The notes under the pieces were generated by a model. That model searched no databases. It saw only the letters and a program-made list of their open reading frames with translations, and was not told the origin of the DNA. Shown piece after piece: positions 9,826 through 16,155 of a DNA stretch of 64,000 nt. This DNA comes from Lutibacter sp. (lineage in GTDB: Bacteria > Bacteroidota > Bacteroidia > Flavobacteriales > Flavobacteriaceae): assembly GCA_030683995.1 (NCBI GenBank), contig JAUXPH010000025.1:1-64000 (forward strand). The letters run 5' to 3'. The position numbers and the translations under genes are program-made. Every line of letters begins with the position of its first letter. Position 1 is the stretch's first letter.

Positions 9826-11121
9826 TTAAGCATTAACCAGAAACTGTTTTAATTCTTCGTAGAATGAAATATTAATCGATACTTTTTCTTTGTCAATTAC
9901 TTCTTTAATTTGTTTTGGCAATTCAAGGGTTTCATTGATAATTGGCTCAACTACATTTAAAAATTTTACGGGATGTGCAGTTTCTAAAAAGATGCCAAAC
10001 GCATTTGAATCAATCCCGTGTTTTTTCAATCCCAAATAACCAACAGCACCGTGAGGATCTGCAATATAATTGAACTTTTCATTTAATTCCTTCATCGCTT
10101 GCCGGGTTTCTTTATCGGTAAATGAATAGGAGGAAAGCACCTTTTTTAATTTTACATCATCATTGTTAAAAATTTCTAAAATCCGAACAAAATTACTTGG
10201 ATCGCCAACATCCATTGCGTTGGAAATGGTTTGTTTTGAGGGTTTTGACGTGTAAATTCCTGTTTCTAAATAATCAGGAACAATATCATTGATGTTTGTG
10301 GCAGCAATAAACTGTTTTACCGGCAAACCTAATTTGTGTGCCATAAGACCAGCACAAATATTGCCGAAATTTCCGCTTGGGACAGAAAAAATAAAATCTT
10401 TTTGCTTGTTTTTCAATTGTTTGTAGGCAAAAAAGAAATAAAACATTTGCGGAAGCCAACGCGCTACATTAATTGAATTCGCTGAGGTCAAATTTTTATT
10501 TGCGATTAATTCTTCATCCAAAAAAGCAGTTTTCACCATGGCCTGGCAATCGTCAAAAGTGCCATGAACTTCCAAAGCGGTGATGTTTTGCCCTAAAGTT
10601 GTCAGTTGCTTTTCCTGAACATCACTCACTTTACCGCTTGGGTATAAAATAACCACATCAACGCCTTCAACCCCTAAAAAACCACTTGCGACGGCTCCTC
10701 CCGTATCACCGGAAGTCGCTACCAAAACAGTTACTTTATTCGTTTTTTCTTCTTTGTTGAAATAACCCAAACATCGCGCCATAAAACGGGCTCCGACATC
10801 TTTGAAAGCCATGGTCGGACCGTGAAATAATTCCAAAGCGGCAATATTTTCTTCTATGGTAACAATGGGAAAATCAAAGTTTAACGTTGCTGAAATAATT
10901 TCTTTAAGTTCGTTCTCCGGAATTTCATCAGCCACAAATTGTTTGATCACTTCAAAAGCAATTTCGGCATTTGAAAAATCTTCAATATGATCAAAAAAAT
11001 CTTTGCTTAAAGGCGTAATTTTCTCTGGAAAATACAAACCTTTGTCGGGTGCCAAGCCTTTAATTACGGCATCTTTAAAGGTTACGTTTGGCGCTATTTT
11101 ATTTAAACTGTAAAAGTTCAT
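9826..11121 (-). CDS. thrC: Threonine synthase
   Basis: A 431-residue PLP enzyme that converts O-phosphohomoserine to threonine, the last step of the pathway. K107 in HGPTMAFKDVGARF is the PLP lysine. The glycine-rich phosphate-binding loop is ATSGDTGGAVASGF, and SGNFGNICAG follows. It is the last gene of the thrA-thrB-thrC operon and starts 1 nt after the thrB stop, so translation is probably coupled. No terminator hairpin is evident downstream. Confidence 0.97.
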   Translation of the reverse strand: MNFYSLNKIAPNVTFKDAVIKGLAPDKGLYFPEKITPLSKDFFDHIEDFSNAEIAFEVIKQFVADEIPENELKEIISATLNFDFPIVTIEENIAALELFHGPTMAFKDVGARFMARCLGYFNKEEKTNKVTVLVATSGDTGGAVASGFLGVEGVDVVILYPSGKVSDVQEKQLTTLGQNITALEVHGTFDDCQAMVKTAFLDEELIANKNLTSANSINVARWLPQMFYFFFAYKQLKNKQKDFIFSVPSGNFGNICAGLMAHKLGLPVKQFIAATNINDIVPDYLETGIYTSKPSKQTISNAMDVGDPSNFVRILEIFNNDDVKLKKVLSSYSFTDKETRQAMKELNEKFNYIADPHGAVGYLGLKKHGIDSNAFGIFLETAHPVKFLNVVEPIINETLELPKQIKEVIDKEKVSINISFYEELKQFLVNA

Positions 11122-11122
11122 A

Positions 11123-12052
11123 TTACTTGCTTTCTAAAATTTTTATTCCTTCTTTATTTACTTTTGAAACGTGGATATCATAGGGCACACCAACTTTATC
11201 ATAAACAATCCTCATAGCTTCCGCGACTTTTAAAGCAGTGTCTTTTCCTTTGCTTAAAGCAAAAACGGATGGCCCGGAGCCAGAAATACCGCATCCCAAA
11301 GCGCCTGCTTTTACTGATTCAAGTTTCAATAAATCAAAAGCGGGAATTAAAATAGAACGTATCGGTTCCACAATAAAATCTTCCAAAGAACGTCCGATAA
11401 GGTCATAATCTTCGGTATAAAGTCCGCTGATCAATCCGCCCACATTTCCCCATTGTTTGATGGCATTTTTCAAGGTAACTGTCGTTTTCAAAATTTCACG
11501 GGCGTCTGATGTTTTTACTTCAATTTGAGGATGGATTACCGTTACAAACAATTCGCTTGGCGTATGGATGTTAATAATGTCCAATGGCTCATAACTTCTA
11601 ACCAACGTAAATCCGCCAAAAAGGGCAGGAGCCACATTGTCGGCGTGCGGCACACCGCTTGCCAATCGTTCGCCTTCCATGGCAAAACGCACCAAATCTT
11701 TGGGGCTGAAAGGATCTCCCAGCAATTTATTTATGGCCCAAACCGCTCCGGCTGAACTTGCAGCACTGCTGCCAATTCCGCTTCCCGGTTTTATGCGTTT
11801 GTCTATTTCAATTTCAAATCCGAATTCGGTGTTTATTTCAGCCAAAAGCGCCAATGCCGCAACGCCCGACACATTTTTATGCGTTTCCAAAGGAACCGAT
11901 TGTCCGGTAATTTTTGTGATTCTCACGCCTTTTTCGGCCACTTTTCTAATGGTCATTTCATCGCCTACAGTATCTAAAGCCAAGCCCAACACGTCAAATC
12001 CGCAAGAAACATTTGCAATGGTTGCCGGCGTAAATATTTTTAGTTCTTTCAT
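11123..12052 (-). CDS. thrB: Homoserine kinase
   Basis: A 309-residue GHMP kinase that phosphorylates homoserine with ATP. The GHMP ATP loop is PGSGIGSSAASSAGAV and the C-terminal motif is GCGISGSGPSVFAL. It sits between thrA and thrC. The gap to thrA (102 bp) is filled by a dispersed repeat whose end overlaps the thrB ATG (12050-12052), so this repeat forms the thrB translation-initiation region. Confidence 0.97.
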   Translation of the reverse strand: MKELKIFTPATIANVSCGFDVLGLALDTVGDEMTIRKVAEKGVRITKITGQSVPLETHKNVSGVAALALLAEINTEFGFEIEIDKRIKPGSGIGSSAASSAGAVWAINKLLGDPFSPKDLVRFAMEGERLASGVPHADNVAPALFGGFTLVRSYEPLDIINIHTPSELFVTVIHPQIEVKTSDAREILKTTVTLKNAIKQWGNVGGLISGLYTEDYDLIGRSLEDFIVEPIRSILIPAFDLLKLESVKAGALGCGISGSGPSVFALSKGKDTALKVAEAMRIVYDKVGVPYDIHVSKVNKEGIKILESK

Positions 12053-12154: not shown

Positions 12155-14599
12155 CTAATTATTGCCAATTCTGATAATATCGGCAAACAAGCCCGAAGCC
12201 GTAACATCAGCTCCTGCGCCAGCGCCTTTGATAATCAATGGTTGTTCGTTGTATCTGTTGGTAAAAAACAACACAATATTGTCTTTTCCCGCCAAATCAT
12301 AAAATGGGTGTGAGGCCGGAATTTCTTTCAACCCAACTTTTGCCTTGCCATTGTTGAATTCTGCTACATATTTAAGTCGGCAGTTTTTTGCTTCTGCATT
12401 TTTCCGCAATAGGTTAAAATGATCGGCTTCCACTTTTAAGGTTTCCATAAAATTGGGTACGGATTTGGCTTCCAGACTTAATTTTGGCAAAAAAGAATCG
12501 TTCGCAATATCATTTAATTCGAGTTGTGTACCGCTTTCCCTGGCCAAGATCAAAATTTTACGGGCAACGTCAACACCACTTAAATCTATTCTTGGGTCAG
12601 GCTCTGTATATCCTTCAATACCAGCTTGTTGAACAACGTCAAAAAACGAATTTTGTTCATTGAAATTGTTAAAAATAAAGTTCAAACTGCCCGATAAAAC
12701 AGCCTGTATTTGGGTAACTTTATCACCAGAAGCTATTAAATTTTTAAGTGTATCTATAATTGGCAATCCTGCACCAACATTGGTTTCGAATAAAAATGGC
12801 GCACTGTATTTCCGACTTAAATTTTTCAGATTCACATAATTATCATAATTCGAAGCGCAAGCAATCTTATTGCAGGTTACCACGGCCACGCTTTCCTTTA
12901 AATAACTTGCATATAAATTGGCGACAGATTCTTCGGCGGTGTTATCGACAAAAATGCTGTTTCGGTAATTTAAATCGGTGATTTTTTCGTGAAAAGCATC
13001 CATGTTCAGATTTTCGGCCTTGTCCAACTGCATTTTCCAAGATTCTAAATCGATACCGTCTTCATTAAATAACATTTTTTTTGAATTCGCCAATCCAATG
13101 ACTCGTACCTGCAATTTCAACTGTTCCAGCAAATAGGGTTGTTGATTTTTAATTTGTGCCAACAATTTTTGTCCGACATTACCAACGCCCACCACAAATA
13201 AATTGAGCTGTTTTGTCTGATCCTCAAAAAATTCGGCGTGCAACGTATTCAAAGCTTTTTTTATGTCCTTATGTGTAATGACTGCCGAAATATTTTTTTC
13301 TGAAGCACCTTGCGCGATGGCTCTGATGTTTACGTTATTTCTTCCCAAAGCGCTAAACATTTTACCGCTAATGCCTTGGTGACTTTTCATATTGTCGCCC
13401 ACCAAAGCAATAATGGCGTTGTTTTTTTCAACGATGAGCGGATTCACTTTATGTTGTGAAATTTCAAAGCTAAAGGTAGCATTGACTGCTAGCTCAGCTT
13501 TTTCAGCATCCGCATTGTTGATGGCGATACAAATTGAATGCTCGGACGAGGCTTGCGTGATTAAAGAAACATTTATTTTTTGCTGAAACAAGGCTTCAAA
13601 CAAACGCTTTGAAAATCCGGGAATACCAACCATTCCGCTTCCTTCCAAGGTTATTAACGTCATATTTTCAATATGGCTGATTCCTTTGATCGGATTGGTA
13701 TTTGAAGTCACTTTTGTGATTAAAGTGCCTTCAGCATTGGCATCAAAAGTATTTTTTATTTTAATGGGAATTTCCTTTTCTAAAACGGGTTGAATGGTTG
13801 GCGGATACAACACTTTTGCACCAAAATGCGACAATTCCATCGCTTCCTGATAAGATATATTTTTAATGGGAAAAGCCTGTTGCACAAAATTAGGATTTGC
13901 GGTGTACATGCCGCTCACGTCTGTCCAAATTTCCAACACAGAAGCATTTGCTCCAGCCGCAACAATAGCTGCGGTATAATCTGAGCCACCACGGCCTAAA
14001 GTAGTAGGTTCTCCGCTTTCTGTTTTTGCAACAAAACCTGGCAAAACCACAATTTTATGATTGTTTTTACTGAAAAAGGATGCAATATTTTGATTGGTTT
14101 GATCGAACTTTACTACCGCATTCGAAAAATTTTCATCGGTAACAATGAGTTCTTGGGAATTTTTCAATGCTGCGTCCAATTCTTTGTTTTTCATTGCTTC
14201 AACAATGATAAATGAAGAAAGCAATTCTCCGAAGCTCACAATTTTATCGGAAGTTTTGGCCGACAATTCATTGATTAAAAAAACGCCTTCCAACGTGGCT
14301 TCCAACTTATTGAGCATTTTTTTTACGTGGCCCAAAACACCGCTTTGGTTGCCAACGGGAATCAATTCCCGGATGACTTTTAAATGCCGTTCTTCAATTG
14401 ATTTAAACTTGTTTTTGTAATTTTCATCGTCAATGCAAGCCAAGTTTCCTGCTTCCAATAATAAATCTGTTATTCCGCCAAGTGCAGAAACCACTACAAT
14501 TATTTCGGTAGTCAATGCGCTGTCTTTAACAATTTCGATTGCTTTATTGATGTTTTCTGAAGTGGCAACTGATGATCCGCCAAATTTTAATACTTTCAT
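12155..14599 (-). CDS. thrA: Bifunctional aspartokinase / homoserine dehydrogenase
   Basis: An 814-residue fusion that catalyses the first and third steps from aspartate to homoserine. The kinase begins KVLKFGGSSVA and continues through GFVAKTESGEPTTLGRGGSDYTAA. ACT-type regulatory repeats (about 310-460) imply feedback control, classically by threonine. The dehydrogenase begins with a Rossmann motif (VVGVGNVGQKLL, near 465) and includes NVGAGLPIIDTL and YTEPDPRIDLSGVDVARK. It is the first structural gene of thrABC, with a threonine-rich leader ORF 108 bp upstream. Confidence 0.97.
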   Translation of the reverse strand: MKVLKFGGSSVATSENINKAIEIVKDSALTTEIIVVVSALGGITDLLLEAGNLACIDDENYKNKFKSIEERHLKVIRELIPVGNQSGVLGHVKKMLNKLEATLEGVFLINELSAKTSDKIVSFGELLSSFIIVEAMKNKELDAALKNSQELIVTDENFSNAVVKFDQTNQNIASFFSKNNHKIVVLPGFVAKTESGEPTTLGRGGSDYTAAIVAAGANASVLEIWTDVSGMYTANPNFVQQAFPIKNISYQEAMELSHFGAKVLYPPTIQPVLEKEIPIKIKNTFDANAEGTLITKVTSNTNPIKGISHIENMTLITLEGSGMVGIPGFSKRLFEALFQQKINVSLITQASSEHSICIAINNADAEKAELAVNATFSFEISQHKVNPLIVEKNNAIIALVGDNMKSHQGISGKMFSALGRNNVNIRAIAQGASEKNISAVITHKDIKKALNTLHAEFFEDQTKQLNLFVVGVGNVGQKLLAQIKNQQPYLLEQLKLQVRVIGLANSKKMLFNEDGIDLESWKMQLDKAENLNMDAFHEKITDLNYRNSIFVDNTAEESVANLYASYLKESVAVVTCNKIACASNYDNYVNLKNLSRKYSAPFLFETNVGAGLPIIDTLKNLIASGDKVTQIQAVLSGSLNFIFNNFNEQNSFFDVVQQAGIEGYTEPDPRIDLSGVDVARKILILARESGTQLELNDIANDSFLPKLSLEAKSVPNFMETLKVEADHFNLLRKNAEAKNCRLKYVAEFNNGKAKVGLKEIPASHPFYDLAGKDNIVLFFTNRYNEQPLIIKGAGAGADVTASGLFADIIRIGNN

Positions 14600-14643: not shown

Positions 14644-14675
14644 ATTCGTTGTTTTCTGAATTATTGAAAACGAAT
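14644..14675 (-). promoter_or_regulatory. Stem-loop between thrL and thrA, possible attenuator
   Basis: On the minus strand ATTCGTTTTC pairs with GAAAACAACGAAT as a 10-bp stem with a 3-nt bulge and a 9-nt loop, 33 nt after the thrL stop. No strong U-tract follows, so it could be an anti-terminator or a weak pause/terminator hairpin. A smaller ACCC-GGGT hairpin overlaps the thrL stop codon. Confidence 0.45.
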
Positions 14676-14707
14676 ATAGCTACGGGTGATATAAATAGAC
14701 AGAACCC

Positions 14708-14803
14708 CTAAAGGGTAGTACAGAATGTGGTTGTAGTGGCAACAACAAAATAGAACGCAGATTTTGCGCTTAACAGGATGTTATGTGAATTTGTTTTTTG
14801 CAT
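14708..14803 (-). CDS. thrL: Threonine-rich leader peptide of the thr operon
   Basis: A 31-codon ORF ending VVATTTTFCTTL, with six threonine codons among the last nine and four of them consecutive (ACT ACA ACC ACA). It lies 108 bp before thrA. Such Thr runs ahead of thrABC are the signature of ribosome-mediated attenuation, as with thrL of enterobacteria, although this peptide has a different sequence. Its ATG lies 4 nt after a TACTTTTG -7 box, so the mRNA probably starts at or next to this ORF. Codons are unambiguous; function is inferred from context. The peptide begins MQKTNSHNILL and contains SAFYF. Confidence 0.8.
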   Translation of the reverse strand: MQKTNSHNILLSAKSAFYFVVATTTTFCTTL

Positions 14804-14807
14804 AGGT

Positions 14808-14836
14808 CAAAAGTAATTATTTTTTTAAATACACAA
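14808..14836 (-). promoter_or_regulatory. Promoter of thrL-thrABC
   Basis: On the minus strand TTG (14836-14834), an 18-nt spacer and TACTTTTG (14815-14808) match the flavobacterial promoter consensus TTG-N17-23-TAnnTTTG. Four nucleotides (ACCT) then separate the box from the thrL ATG, which predicts a nearly leaderless transcript. Confidence 0.7.
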
Positions 14837-14946: not shown

Positions 14947-16155
14947 TTAATCCAAATCAACAATGACCTGATTATTAATCAGATCTTCGAATGTTTCTTC
15001 TTTTCTGATCAAATAATCCTTGCCTTTATAATACAAAACTTCAGCAGGTCGGTATCTCGAATTGTAATTGGAAGCCATCGAAAAGCAATAAGCGCCCGCA
15101 TTGTTAAAACAAAGCACATCGCCTTCGGTAATTTCACTGATTCTGCGATTGGTGGCAAAAGTGTCTGTTTCGCATATATAACCGACTACAGAATAGTAGC
15201 GTTCACGACCTTCCGGATTTGAAATATTGTGAATATGATGGTATGAATCATAAAACATTGGTCGGATCAAATGATTAAAACCTGAATCAATACTCGCAAA
15301 AACAGTGGAAGTTGTATGTTTCACCACATTGACGTGCGCCAAAAAACAACCGGATTCACTCACCAAAAATTTTCCCGGCTCAAACATCAATATTAAGTCT
15401 TTACCGTAATCTTTACAGAAACTATTGAAACGCTCGGATAATTTTTCACCCAATTCTTCAATATTTGTTGAAATATCGCCTTCTTTATAAGGTACTTTAA
15501 ATCCGCTTCCAAAATCTATAAATTCTAAATCTTCAAAGGCTGTTGCCGTATTAAATAAAATTTCAGTAGCCGCCAAAAACACATCGATATCCAAAATATC
15601 GGAACCCGTATGCATATGAACACCGTTAATATGCATTCCGGTATTTTCTACAACTCTTTTAATATGAGGTAATTGGTGGATTGAAATTCCGAATTTTGAA
15701 TCGATATGGCCCACAGAAATTTTTGAATGTCCGCCCGCCATAATATGCGGATTGATACGCACGCAAACCGGCGTGTTAGGGTAGCGATGGCCAAATTGTT
15801 CCAAAATAGACAAATTGTCGATATTTATTTGAACTCCCAAAGCTGCCGCTTTTTCGATTTCCGACAATGATACGCCGTTTGGCGTAAAAATGATGTTTTC
15901 AGGTTCGAATCCTGCTTCCAATCCCAAAAGCACTTCTTGTATGGAAACTGTGTCAATTCCCGAATTCAACTTTTTGAAAAATTTCAAAATACTGATGTTA
16001 GAATTTGCTTTTACGGCATAATTCAATTTTAAATTTTTAACAGACGAAAATGCTGCCGTAATGCGATTGTATTGCGATTCCATTTTTTCGGCATCATAAA
16101 CATACAGCGGACTTCCATATTTTTCAGTAAGAGAAACTAACAATTGACTTTCCAT
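14947..16155 (-). CDS. lysA: Diaminopimelate decarboxylase
   Basis: A 402-residue fold-type III PLP decarboxylase that makes lysine from meso-diaminopimelate. K49 in NYAVKANSN is the PLP lysine. HMHTGSDI and FGSGFKVPY form part of the barrel active site, and the C-terminal motif CETDTFATNRRI supplies the substrate-binding cysteine region. It lies directly upstream of the thr operon on the same strand. The thr promoter lies in the 143-bp gap, so the two are probably separate units that both draw on aspartate semialdehyde. Confidence 0.96.
   Translation of the reverse strand: MESQLLVSLTEKYGSPLYVYDAEKMESQYNRITAAFSSVKNLKLNYAVKANSNISILKFFKKLNSGIDTVSIQEVLLGLEAGFEPENIIFTPNGVSLSEIEKAAALGVQINIDNLSILEQFGHRYPNTPVCVRINPHIMAGGHSKISVGHIDSKFGISIHQLPHIKRVVENTGMHINGVHMHTGSDILDIDVFLAATEILFNTATAFEDLEFIDFGSGFKVPYKEGDISTNIEELGEKLSERFNSFCKDYGKDLILMFEPGKFLVSESGCFLAHVNVVKHTTSTVFASIDSGFNHLIRPMFYDSYHHIHNISNPEGRERYYSVVGYICETDTFATNRRISEITEGDVLCFNNAGAYCFSMASNYNSRYRPAEVLYYKGKDYLIRKEETFEDLINNQVIVDLD

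Follow-up and report, generated by a model that had tools for sequence, protein, structure and literature searches.

The window, i.e., the whole stretch of 64,000 nucleotides of Lutibacter sp. DNA analysed here, carries thrA, thrB, and thrC in this order on its minus strand. They encode a bifunctional aspartate kinase/homoserine dehydrogenase (12155..14599; NF006959, 1042 bits), homoserine kinase (11123..12052; TIGR00191/NF002288), and threonine synthase (9826..11121; TIGR00260), respectively. Among named sequences, those nearest to thrA come mostly from Lutibacter MAGs (90-99% identity). Upstream of thrA lies a Thr-rich leader ORF of 31 codons (14708..14803, minus strand), whose upstream neighbour on the same strand is lysA (14947-16155). 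The translation of the leader is MQKTNSHNILLSAKSAFYFVVATTTTFCTTL, followed by a stop; it ends 108 bp before thrA and has six Thr among its last nine codons, exactly as the original prediction had described. The putative regulatory Thr codon run (TTTTFCTT, 14714..14737, minus strand) is indicated by Thr and Ile codon counts in relatives. The window holds 1492 ORFs with lengths of 10-60 aa, and the thr leader is the only one with at least six Thr in nine residues; of 20 Markov-shuffled windows, one contained an ORF of this kind.

The same genome encodes a second aspartokinase/homoserine dehydrogenase (G000:C10:30345-32747, L002; 36% identity to ThrA), and no Thr-rich ATG-started leader was found in the 420 nt upstream of it. 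In many relatives, this type of second enzyme occurs within a longer open frame of about 1130 aa.

With regard to the promoter, a -33-like TTG element (14836-14834, minus strand) is followed after 18 nt by a -7 box, TACTTTTG (14815-14808), which ends 4 nt before the leader ATG; the elements originally proposed as a promoter are present in the sequence as described. The box is of the TAnnTTTG type, which is given as the sigma-A box of Flavobacterium psychrophilum in the available text of PMC9723704.

Recurrence in the genus, family, and class

The search within Lutibacter covered 38 genomes, 36 of which contain thrA (69-100% identity, three partial), and the other two have weaker paralogues only. 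Thirty upstream regions were read, plus one (L059) that was read with the family set, and five matched genomes were left out; loci L004-L012 duplicate the records L016-L024 and were not counted again. An alignment of thrA upstream regions had been proposed along with the original prediction, a lack of conservation being named as grounds against it. Among the upstream regions read here, the Thr-rich leader is kept in all 30 genus loci and ends in ..TTTxTITL or similar. Its stop codon is TAG in 28 loci and TAA in two, and its start codon is ATG in 27 and GTG in three, an inner start that aligns with the other loci having been chosen in L028 and L034. By eye, 22 codons precede the Thr run in each of the 30 loci, and the run changes in length by whole codons. 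Of the codons after codon 22, 176 of 255 (69%) encode Thr. Across the first 22 codons, codon positions 1, 2, and 3 are about equally variable (0.89, 0.86, and 0.79 bits), so the early peptide shows no sign of codon-level constraint, a point that speaks against the reading preferred below.

The promoter also recurs in the genus. In all 30 loci read, a TAnnTTT box precedes the leader start at a distance of exactly 4 nt (TAnnTTTG in 27), and the full pattern TTG-N17..20-TAnnTTT(G/A)-N4-start was found in 23. The leader of the genus may be read from a near-leaderless mRNA, as originally suggested. This arrangement does not extend to all relatives: the 31st genus locus, L059 (G033), has the leader but no TAnnTTT box at that place, and in the family the gap between box and start is mostly longer (16-22 nt in 41/77 loci, 4 nt in 5/77). 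Of these 77 family loci, 67 have TAnnTTTG no farther than 190 nt from the leader stop, compared with 5-18 of 77 in shuffled sequences.

The family set comprised 130 genomes, 97 of which gave a strong ThrA match, and 95 upstream regions were fetched, one of them from the same genus; the window itself and one locus without an N-terminus were left out. The first residue of the alignment served as the thrA start; in a few family loci there is no start codon at this position. A simple rule for Thr-rich short ORFs was satisfied in 50/95 upstream regions, as against 3/95 on the reverse strand and 1-5/95 in shuffles. A second rule, which looks for the hairpin CCC-N3..6-GGG at the end of an open ORF of Thr/Ile codons, identified 77/95 family loci, 67 with at least three Thr and 74 with at least four Thr plus Ile. 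Its controls gave 1/95 on the reverse strand, 0-2/95 in Markov shuffles, and 0/95 when shifted 300 nt upstream. The ORF of Thr/Ile codons hence recurs beyond the genus, together with a hairpin at its stop codon; a Kordia locus likewise has both. In the last ten codons before this hairpin, 40% are Thr and 20% Ile over the 77 loci. Thr-poor leaders are few (L139 and L144), and some such leaders are Ile-rich, e.g., GIIIITGITPLGV.

The remaining 18 of the 95 family loci lack the combined leader and hairpin element. Two of them (L131 and L141) have Thr leaders followed by canonical U-tract terminators, and the other 16 have neither design by these rules. By eye, at least some of these 16 upstream regions follow the end of an apparent threonine dehydratase gene.

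In the class sample, 29 of 139 genomes matched, and 25 upstream regions were read, 24 of them from other families. Thr codons run into a stop-codon hairpin in nine of these 24; in this sample, the hairpins of ten loci were picked by eye alone. Three of the nine have a stem of another sequence, ACGGG-loop-CCCGU, whose loop holds the stop codon. P2 equivalents of this form (P2 being the stop-codon hairpin) were noted in L182, L184, and L185, with the GNRA-like tetraloops GUAA and GUGA in L182 and L184. Three other upstream regions, all from family f41 (L187, L189, and L193), contain Thr leaders with U-tract terminators, and the rest of the 24 have neither a stop-codon hairpin nor a U-tract terminator. 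To judge from the sequences, the two putative attenuator designs seem to stand in for one another in different lineages.

A model (R1) matched 13/249 family genomes and 25/96 fetched loci. This low yield is explained by the fact that the model was built almost wholly on one genus, and the comparison of ORF and hairpin was used instead.

The recurrence of this codon run makes a Thr/Ile-sensing, ribosome-mediated control of thrABC very probable. The original prediction spoke of translation-coupled attenuation; the recurring Thr/Ile ORF supports this in part, and we infer the regulation itself.

The stop-codon hairpin and the absence of U-tract terminators

The hairpin P2 (ACCC-UUUA-GGGGU, 14704..14716, minus strand) spans the stop codon of the leader in the window, and in relatives it sits over or just before this codon. 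The last Thr codon lies in its 5′ arm, and a Thr codon is found inside P2 in 107/107 loci, a count that is partly built in by the choice of ORF. Thr or Ile is frequent at the six codons before P2, and these codons abut the hairpin. A shift of the reading frame relative to P2 between lineages was considered and rejected, as the Thr codon of P2 is in frame and only the stop position varies.

The case for P2 comes from its recurrence in relatives, i.e., in 30/30 genus loci, in Kordia, and in the family loci described above. Covariation provides no test of P2 because its pairs are invariant within the family. In the window, P2 alone does not exceed its dinucleotide shuffles in stability (z -0.4), and it is absent from the best fold of the entire leader, in which its 3′ arm pairs with the linker downstream. 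The z-scores of its fold energy over the loci (-6.1 against mononucleotide and -3.0 against Markov shuffles) are circular because the loci were chosen by that hairpin.

Terminators were sought by an energy-based search for a hairpin plus U-tract in 200 nt for thr and hisG and 500 nt for ilvD. Such a terminator was found in 0/30 genus and 4/77 family thr upstream regions, none at -12 kcal/mol or better. In contrast, 9/9 hisG and 7/9 ilvD upstream regions, this genome included, contain one, all at -12 kcal/mol or better, and Markov-shuffle controls gave 0-2. An earlier energy-based run, with unequal lengths and the second ilvD copy (L159) left out, had given 9/9 for hisG, 7/8 for ilvD, and, for thr, 3/77 in the family, 0/30 in the genus, and 1/1 in Kordia, where the hairpin lies far downstream. 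The energy-based search had replaced a pattern-based rule, under which obvious his and ilv terminators went undetected.

By eye, this genome's his and ilv leaders read MNFSQNHHHHFHNRTQVS and MNQVILNIVAIRVSVIISQGG, respectively. The thr leader thus has no U-tract terminator where the his and ilv leaders have one, and the difference lies in the thr element rather than in the termination machinery of the organism. The five thr loci with canonical terminators (L131, L141, L187, L189, and L193) make a control of termination before thrA plausible in the phylum. The output of the attenuator is probably something other than an intrinsic terminator, and the suspicion voiced in the original prediction that the switch may not be a standard terminator agrees with the comparison to his and ilv leaders from this genome and its relatives.

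Some further features of these control loci were observed. His-rich short ORFs lie just upstream of the hisG terminators in L165-L173 (this genome being L172; by eye). Before ilvD in L162 (G010), two tandem leader ORFs rich in Ile, Val, and Leu are each followed by a U-tract terminator, and L157 and L158 look similar by eye. In addition, a Flavo-1 RNA (RF01705) was detected near ilvD of this genome (L161:3788-3869, 55 bits).

P2 itself might act as a weak intrinsic terminator that is blocked directly by a ribosome stalled on the adjoining Thr codons. The fact that these codons abut P2 would suit such a role, and a lax rule (hairpin plus at least five T in eight) was satisfied in 20/31 genus-plus-Kordia loci (shuffled mean 0.1) and 20/77 family loci (shuffled 0.8). 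All 16 lax-rule examples inspected are P2, and the lax scan of the window flagged P2 together with a hairpin inside the ORF, P1 (two found, 0.1 expected). However, the strict pattern rule found terminators in 0/31 and 4/77 of these loci, the energy-based counts are equally low, and full U-tracts are present in the his and ilv leaders of these genomes. A terminator function of P2 is therefore unlikely, and a ribosome-mediated attenuator with no intrinsic terminator is preferred in what follows.

Other structures and the linker

Two further hairpins were found in the window. P1 (AGCGCA-AAAUC-UGCGUU, 14754..14770, minus strand) lies inside the ORF and has a fold energy of -5.4 kcal/mol (z -3.0). 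RNAalifold on a plain MAFFT alignment recovered only three pairs, all of P2, because the hairpin arms shift between sub-groups, and P1 was therefore counted in two sub-alignments. Two-sided changes occur at four of five pairs in 20 genus loci and at two of six in the other 10. In the 20 loci, 88% of the cells are paired, above all 500 shuffles; column slides of -2 and +2 also give four such pairs, but with 61% and 48% of the cells paired.

P3 (14643..14676, minus strand) is an A/U-rich hairpin with no U-tract and a fold energy of -5.7 kcal/mol (z -4.1). It corresponds to the hairpin that the original prediction had placed at 14644-14675 and described as lacking a strong U-tract. This hairpin is real, but it is variable, and the recurring hallmark of the leader is the stop-codon hairpin P2, which had been overlooked, as had P1 and the linker. 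Over 108 loci, P3 is the weaker hairpin, with a Markov-shuffle mean z of -1.9; several loci, among them L073, L081, L116, and L128, have folds that do not contain it, and its covariation, seen in 25 loci, comes from an alignment fitted to the model.

The linker between P2 and P3 (14677..14703, minus strand) is pyrimidine-rich and poor in structure, as judged from its self-fold, composition, and motif counts. Over 108 loci, its self-fold is less structured than that of shuffled sequence (z +0.5), and it has no preferred pairing partner, avoiding P3 and the region before thrA. The C fraction is 0.20 and the G fraction 0.10 in the family and 0.065 in the genus. YC dinucleotides number 12.8-14.6 per 100 nt, as against 5.4 in 36 5′ flanks of the window, an excess of 2.4-2.7 fold over the flanks of one genome. 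The Thr-codon stretch is C-rich and not G-poor, and in the genus it is poor in YC (3.9 versus 5.4 per 100 nt).

Several linker motifs recur, their patterns having been chosen after looking at the loci. ATAT is present in 65/77 family loci (35 when shuffled), at a median of 9 nt after P2. A CCG-like motif follows in 51/77 loci at a median of 17 nt after P2 (10-90% range, 16-20), and TCCGT occurs in 27/77 compared with 1.7 in shuffled sequences; the window itself reads CACCCGT. The distance from the leader stop to thrA is 58-110 nt in 73/77 family loci.

For 108 loci, the duplex energy of every pairwise combination of six leader segments was compared with mononucleotide shuffles. No consistent antiterminator or start-site pairing was found among these segments, and the only pair beyond shuffles was that of the early ORF with the Thr region (mean z -1.0).

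These results bear on a translational form of attenuation, in which translation of the leader would set the access of ribosomes to thrA through RNA pairing or reinitiation. The absence of U-tract terminators from the thr leaders would suit such control, and the apparently near-leaderless state of the genus leader recalls the mycobacterial poly-Cys leaders (available text of PMC9031893). However, no part of the leader pairs consistently with the region before thrA (mean z -0.10 to +0.60 against mononucleotide shuffles of 106 loci), 43 nt separate the end of P3 from the thrA ATG downstream of it, and the occlusion of the start site by pairing, as in the mycobacterial type, was not found among the leader segments. 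Translational control of this kind appears improbable.

It could also be proposed that P3 acts as a classical terminator with an alternative antiterminator. P3 is a real hairpin, and the full-leader fold of the window pairs the 3′ arm of P2 with the linker. This pairing was tried as an antiterminator and rejected, since it is not general over the 108 loci. Moreover, P3 has no U-tract in 76 of 77 family loci (the exception being L148), neither P3 nor the pairing of P2 with the linker shows alternatives beyond shuffles in 108 loci, and P3 is missing from the folds noted above. Nearly all thr leaders examined have no U-tract terminator, no alternative pairing that would exclude one was found among the leader segments, and classical attenuation is quite improbable.

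Finally, a promoter of thrA in the linker/P3 region, with the leader as a side transcript or of separate function, is highly improbable, as the box TAnnTTTG between P2 and thrA, although found in 14/108 loci (5.2 shuffled), is absent from the window and from 29/30 genus loci, and the recurring Thr codons would be left unexplained. Nine of the 14 loci have look-alike leaders (L064, L066, L067, L068, L078, L086, L093, L100, and L103), and a second promoter before thrA is possible in these nine.

Proposed control of thrABC and relation to known systems

The preferred reading, a ribosome-mediated attenuator with no intrinsic terminator, can be summarized as a series of predicted steps. We infer from the arrangement of the codons that the leader is translated, that ribosomes stall on it, and in which direction the control works. 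The leader would sense the supply of threonyl-tRNA and, in many relatives, of isoleucyl-tRNA as well. When Thr-tRNA is scarce, the ribosome would stall on the Thr codons leading into the 5′ arm of P2, hold P2 open, and cover the leader, and RNA polymerase would continue into thrA. When Thr is abundant, the ribosome would arrive at the stop codon, which lies within P2 or directly behind it, and depart, and P2 would close. With P2 closed and the linker bare, transcription would end before or early in thrA.

Rho is a tentative guess for the terminating agent. It might load on the pyrimidine-rich, G-poor, and structure-poor linker once the ribosome has gone, and the genome has a Rho gene encoding a protein of about 600 aa. 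Several points speak against Rho. The pyrimidine richness of the linker is weak evidence for a rut site, the 58-110 nt between leader stop and thrA are short for Rho, the Thr-codon stretch itself is not rut-like in the genus, and a linker motif at a fixed distance is more specific than Rho needs. The fixed spacing would agree just as well with a programmed pause of RNA polymerase at the motif or with a different RNA-binding factor. Taken jointly, a ribosome-mediated Thr/Ile attenuator that lacks an intrinsic terminator and has Rho as its likeliest agent is given slightly less than an even chance. A wider generalization, also tentative and less probable than this joint reading, is a Bacteroidota-wide class of terminatorless thr attenuators. 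In this class, a Thr/Ile codon run would lead into a stop-codon hairpin, and a sequence-specific, unstructured element AUAU...UCCG, about 17 nt beyond the hairpin, would recruit Rho or another factor or pause RNA polymerase, ending transcription once the ribosome has gone.

By the sequence features tested, the thr leader would belong to the broad kind of ribosome-mediated amino-acid leader-peptide attenuators. In the proteobacterial thr operon, the leader peptide thrL (Rfam Thr_leader, RF00506) contains Thr and Ile codons. The Lutibacter leader resembles it in being Thr-rich, with Ile in many relatives, and in preceding a bifunctional thrA. It differs in that no Rfam match was obtained, nearly all loci lack a U-tract terminator, and the codons abut and enter a stop-codon hairpin. 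In the window, no Rfam family reached its gathering threshold, Thr_leader RF00506 and the T-box included, and two snoRNA matches (E 8.5 and 8.8) were all that the leader region gave at E<=10. In this genome and its relatives, his and ilv operons are likewise preceded by a short ORF containing His or Ile/Val codons, but these leaders carry U-tract terminators and the thr leader has none.

The tnaC-type leaders are Rho-dependent; their stop codon is followed by Rho-accessible RNA, and the position of the ribosome decides the outcome. The thr leader would be similar in the decisive role of ribosome position and in the RNA exposed after the stop codon, Rho being a guess here, but no arrest peptide is known for it. 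An E. coli uORF tied to Rho-dependent termination is an example of a coupling between ribosome position and Rho (available text of PMC12121999).

The closest counterpart of the thr leader in kind is found in mycobacteria, whose Cys leaders have been described as lacking terminators, and Rho was once guessed as the agent (PMC1262725, in the part available); translational control was later reported (Canestrari 2020, as cited in the available texts of PMC9031893 and PMC13236596). These poly-Cys leaders share with the thr leader a codon run near the stop of a short ORF, which in the genus may be nearly leaderless, and the absence of a terminator. In contrast, the amino acid, phylum, and genes are different, and the thr leader has a recurring stop-codon hairpin and a linker motif and gives no sign of start-site occlusion.

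In flavobacteria, a transcriptome study of F. psychrophilum reported "strong clues" that leader peptides mediate attenuation ahead of amino-acid operons; its available text names no operon and no mechanism (PMC9723704). Leader-like short ORFs were mentioned in 5′ UTRs of B. thetaiotaomicron (PMC7366714), and leader genes in general were mentioned elsewhere (PMC4833913), again in the parts of these sources that were available. No description of a thr leader in Bacteroidota was found in the literature searched, some searches having covered it in part, and no study on Rho and 5′ regions in Bacteroidota was found. Leader-peptide attenuation in flavobacteria has thus already been suggested in print, and the thr leader would be a terminatorless variant of this kind.

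The occurrence of his, ilv, and thr leaders in one genome offers a clean natural comparison for a U-tract-free ending of transcription that would depend on ribosome position. In addition, the stop-codon hairpin and linker would help annotators to find and name such leader genes. In this genome, a strict pattern of P2 plus linker, which would also miss the linker of the window itself, gave two unrelated matches, no more than the backwards control. The R1 model found only thrA to be significant (E 4e-12), and its next match (E 9.9) adjoins an ORF that by eye resembles a peptidyl-prolyl isomerase.
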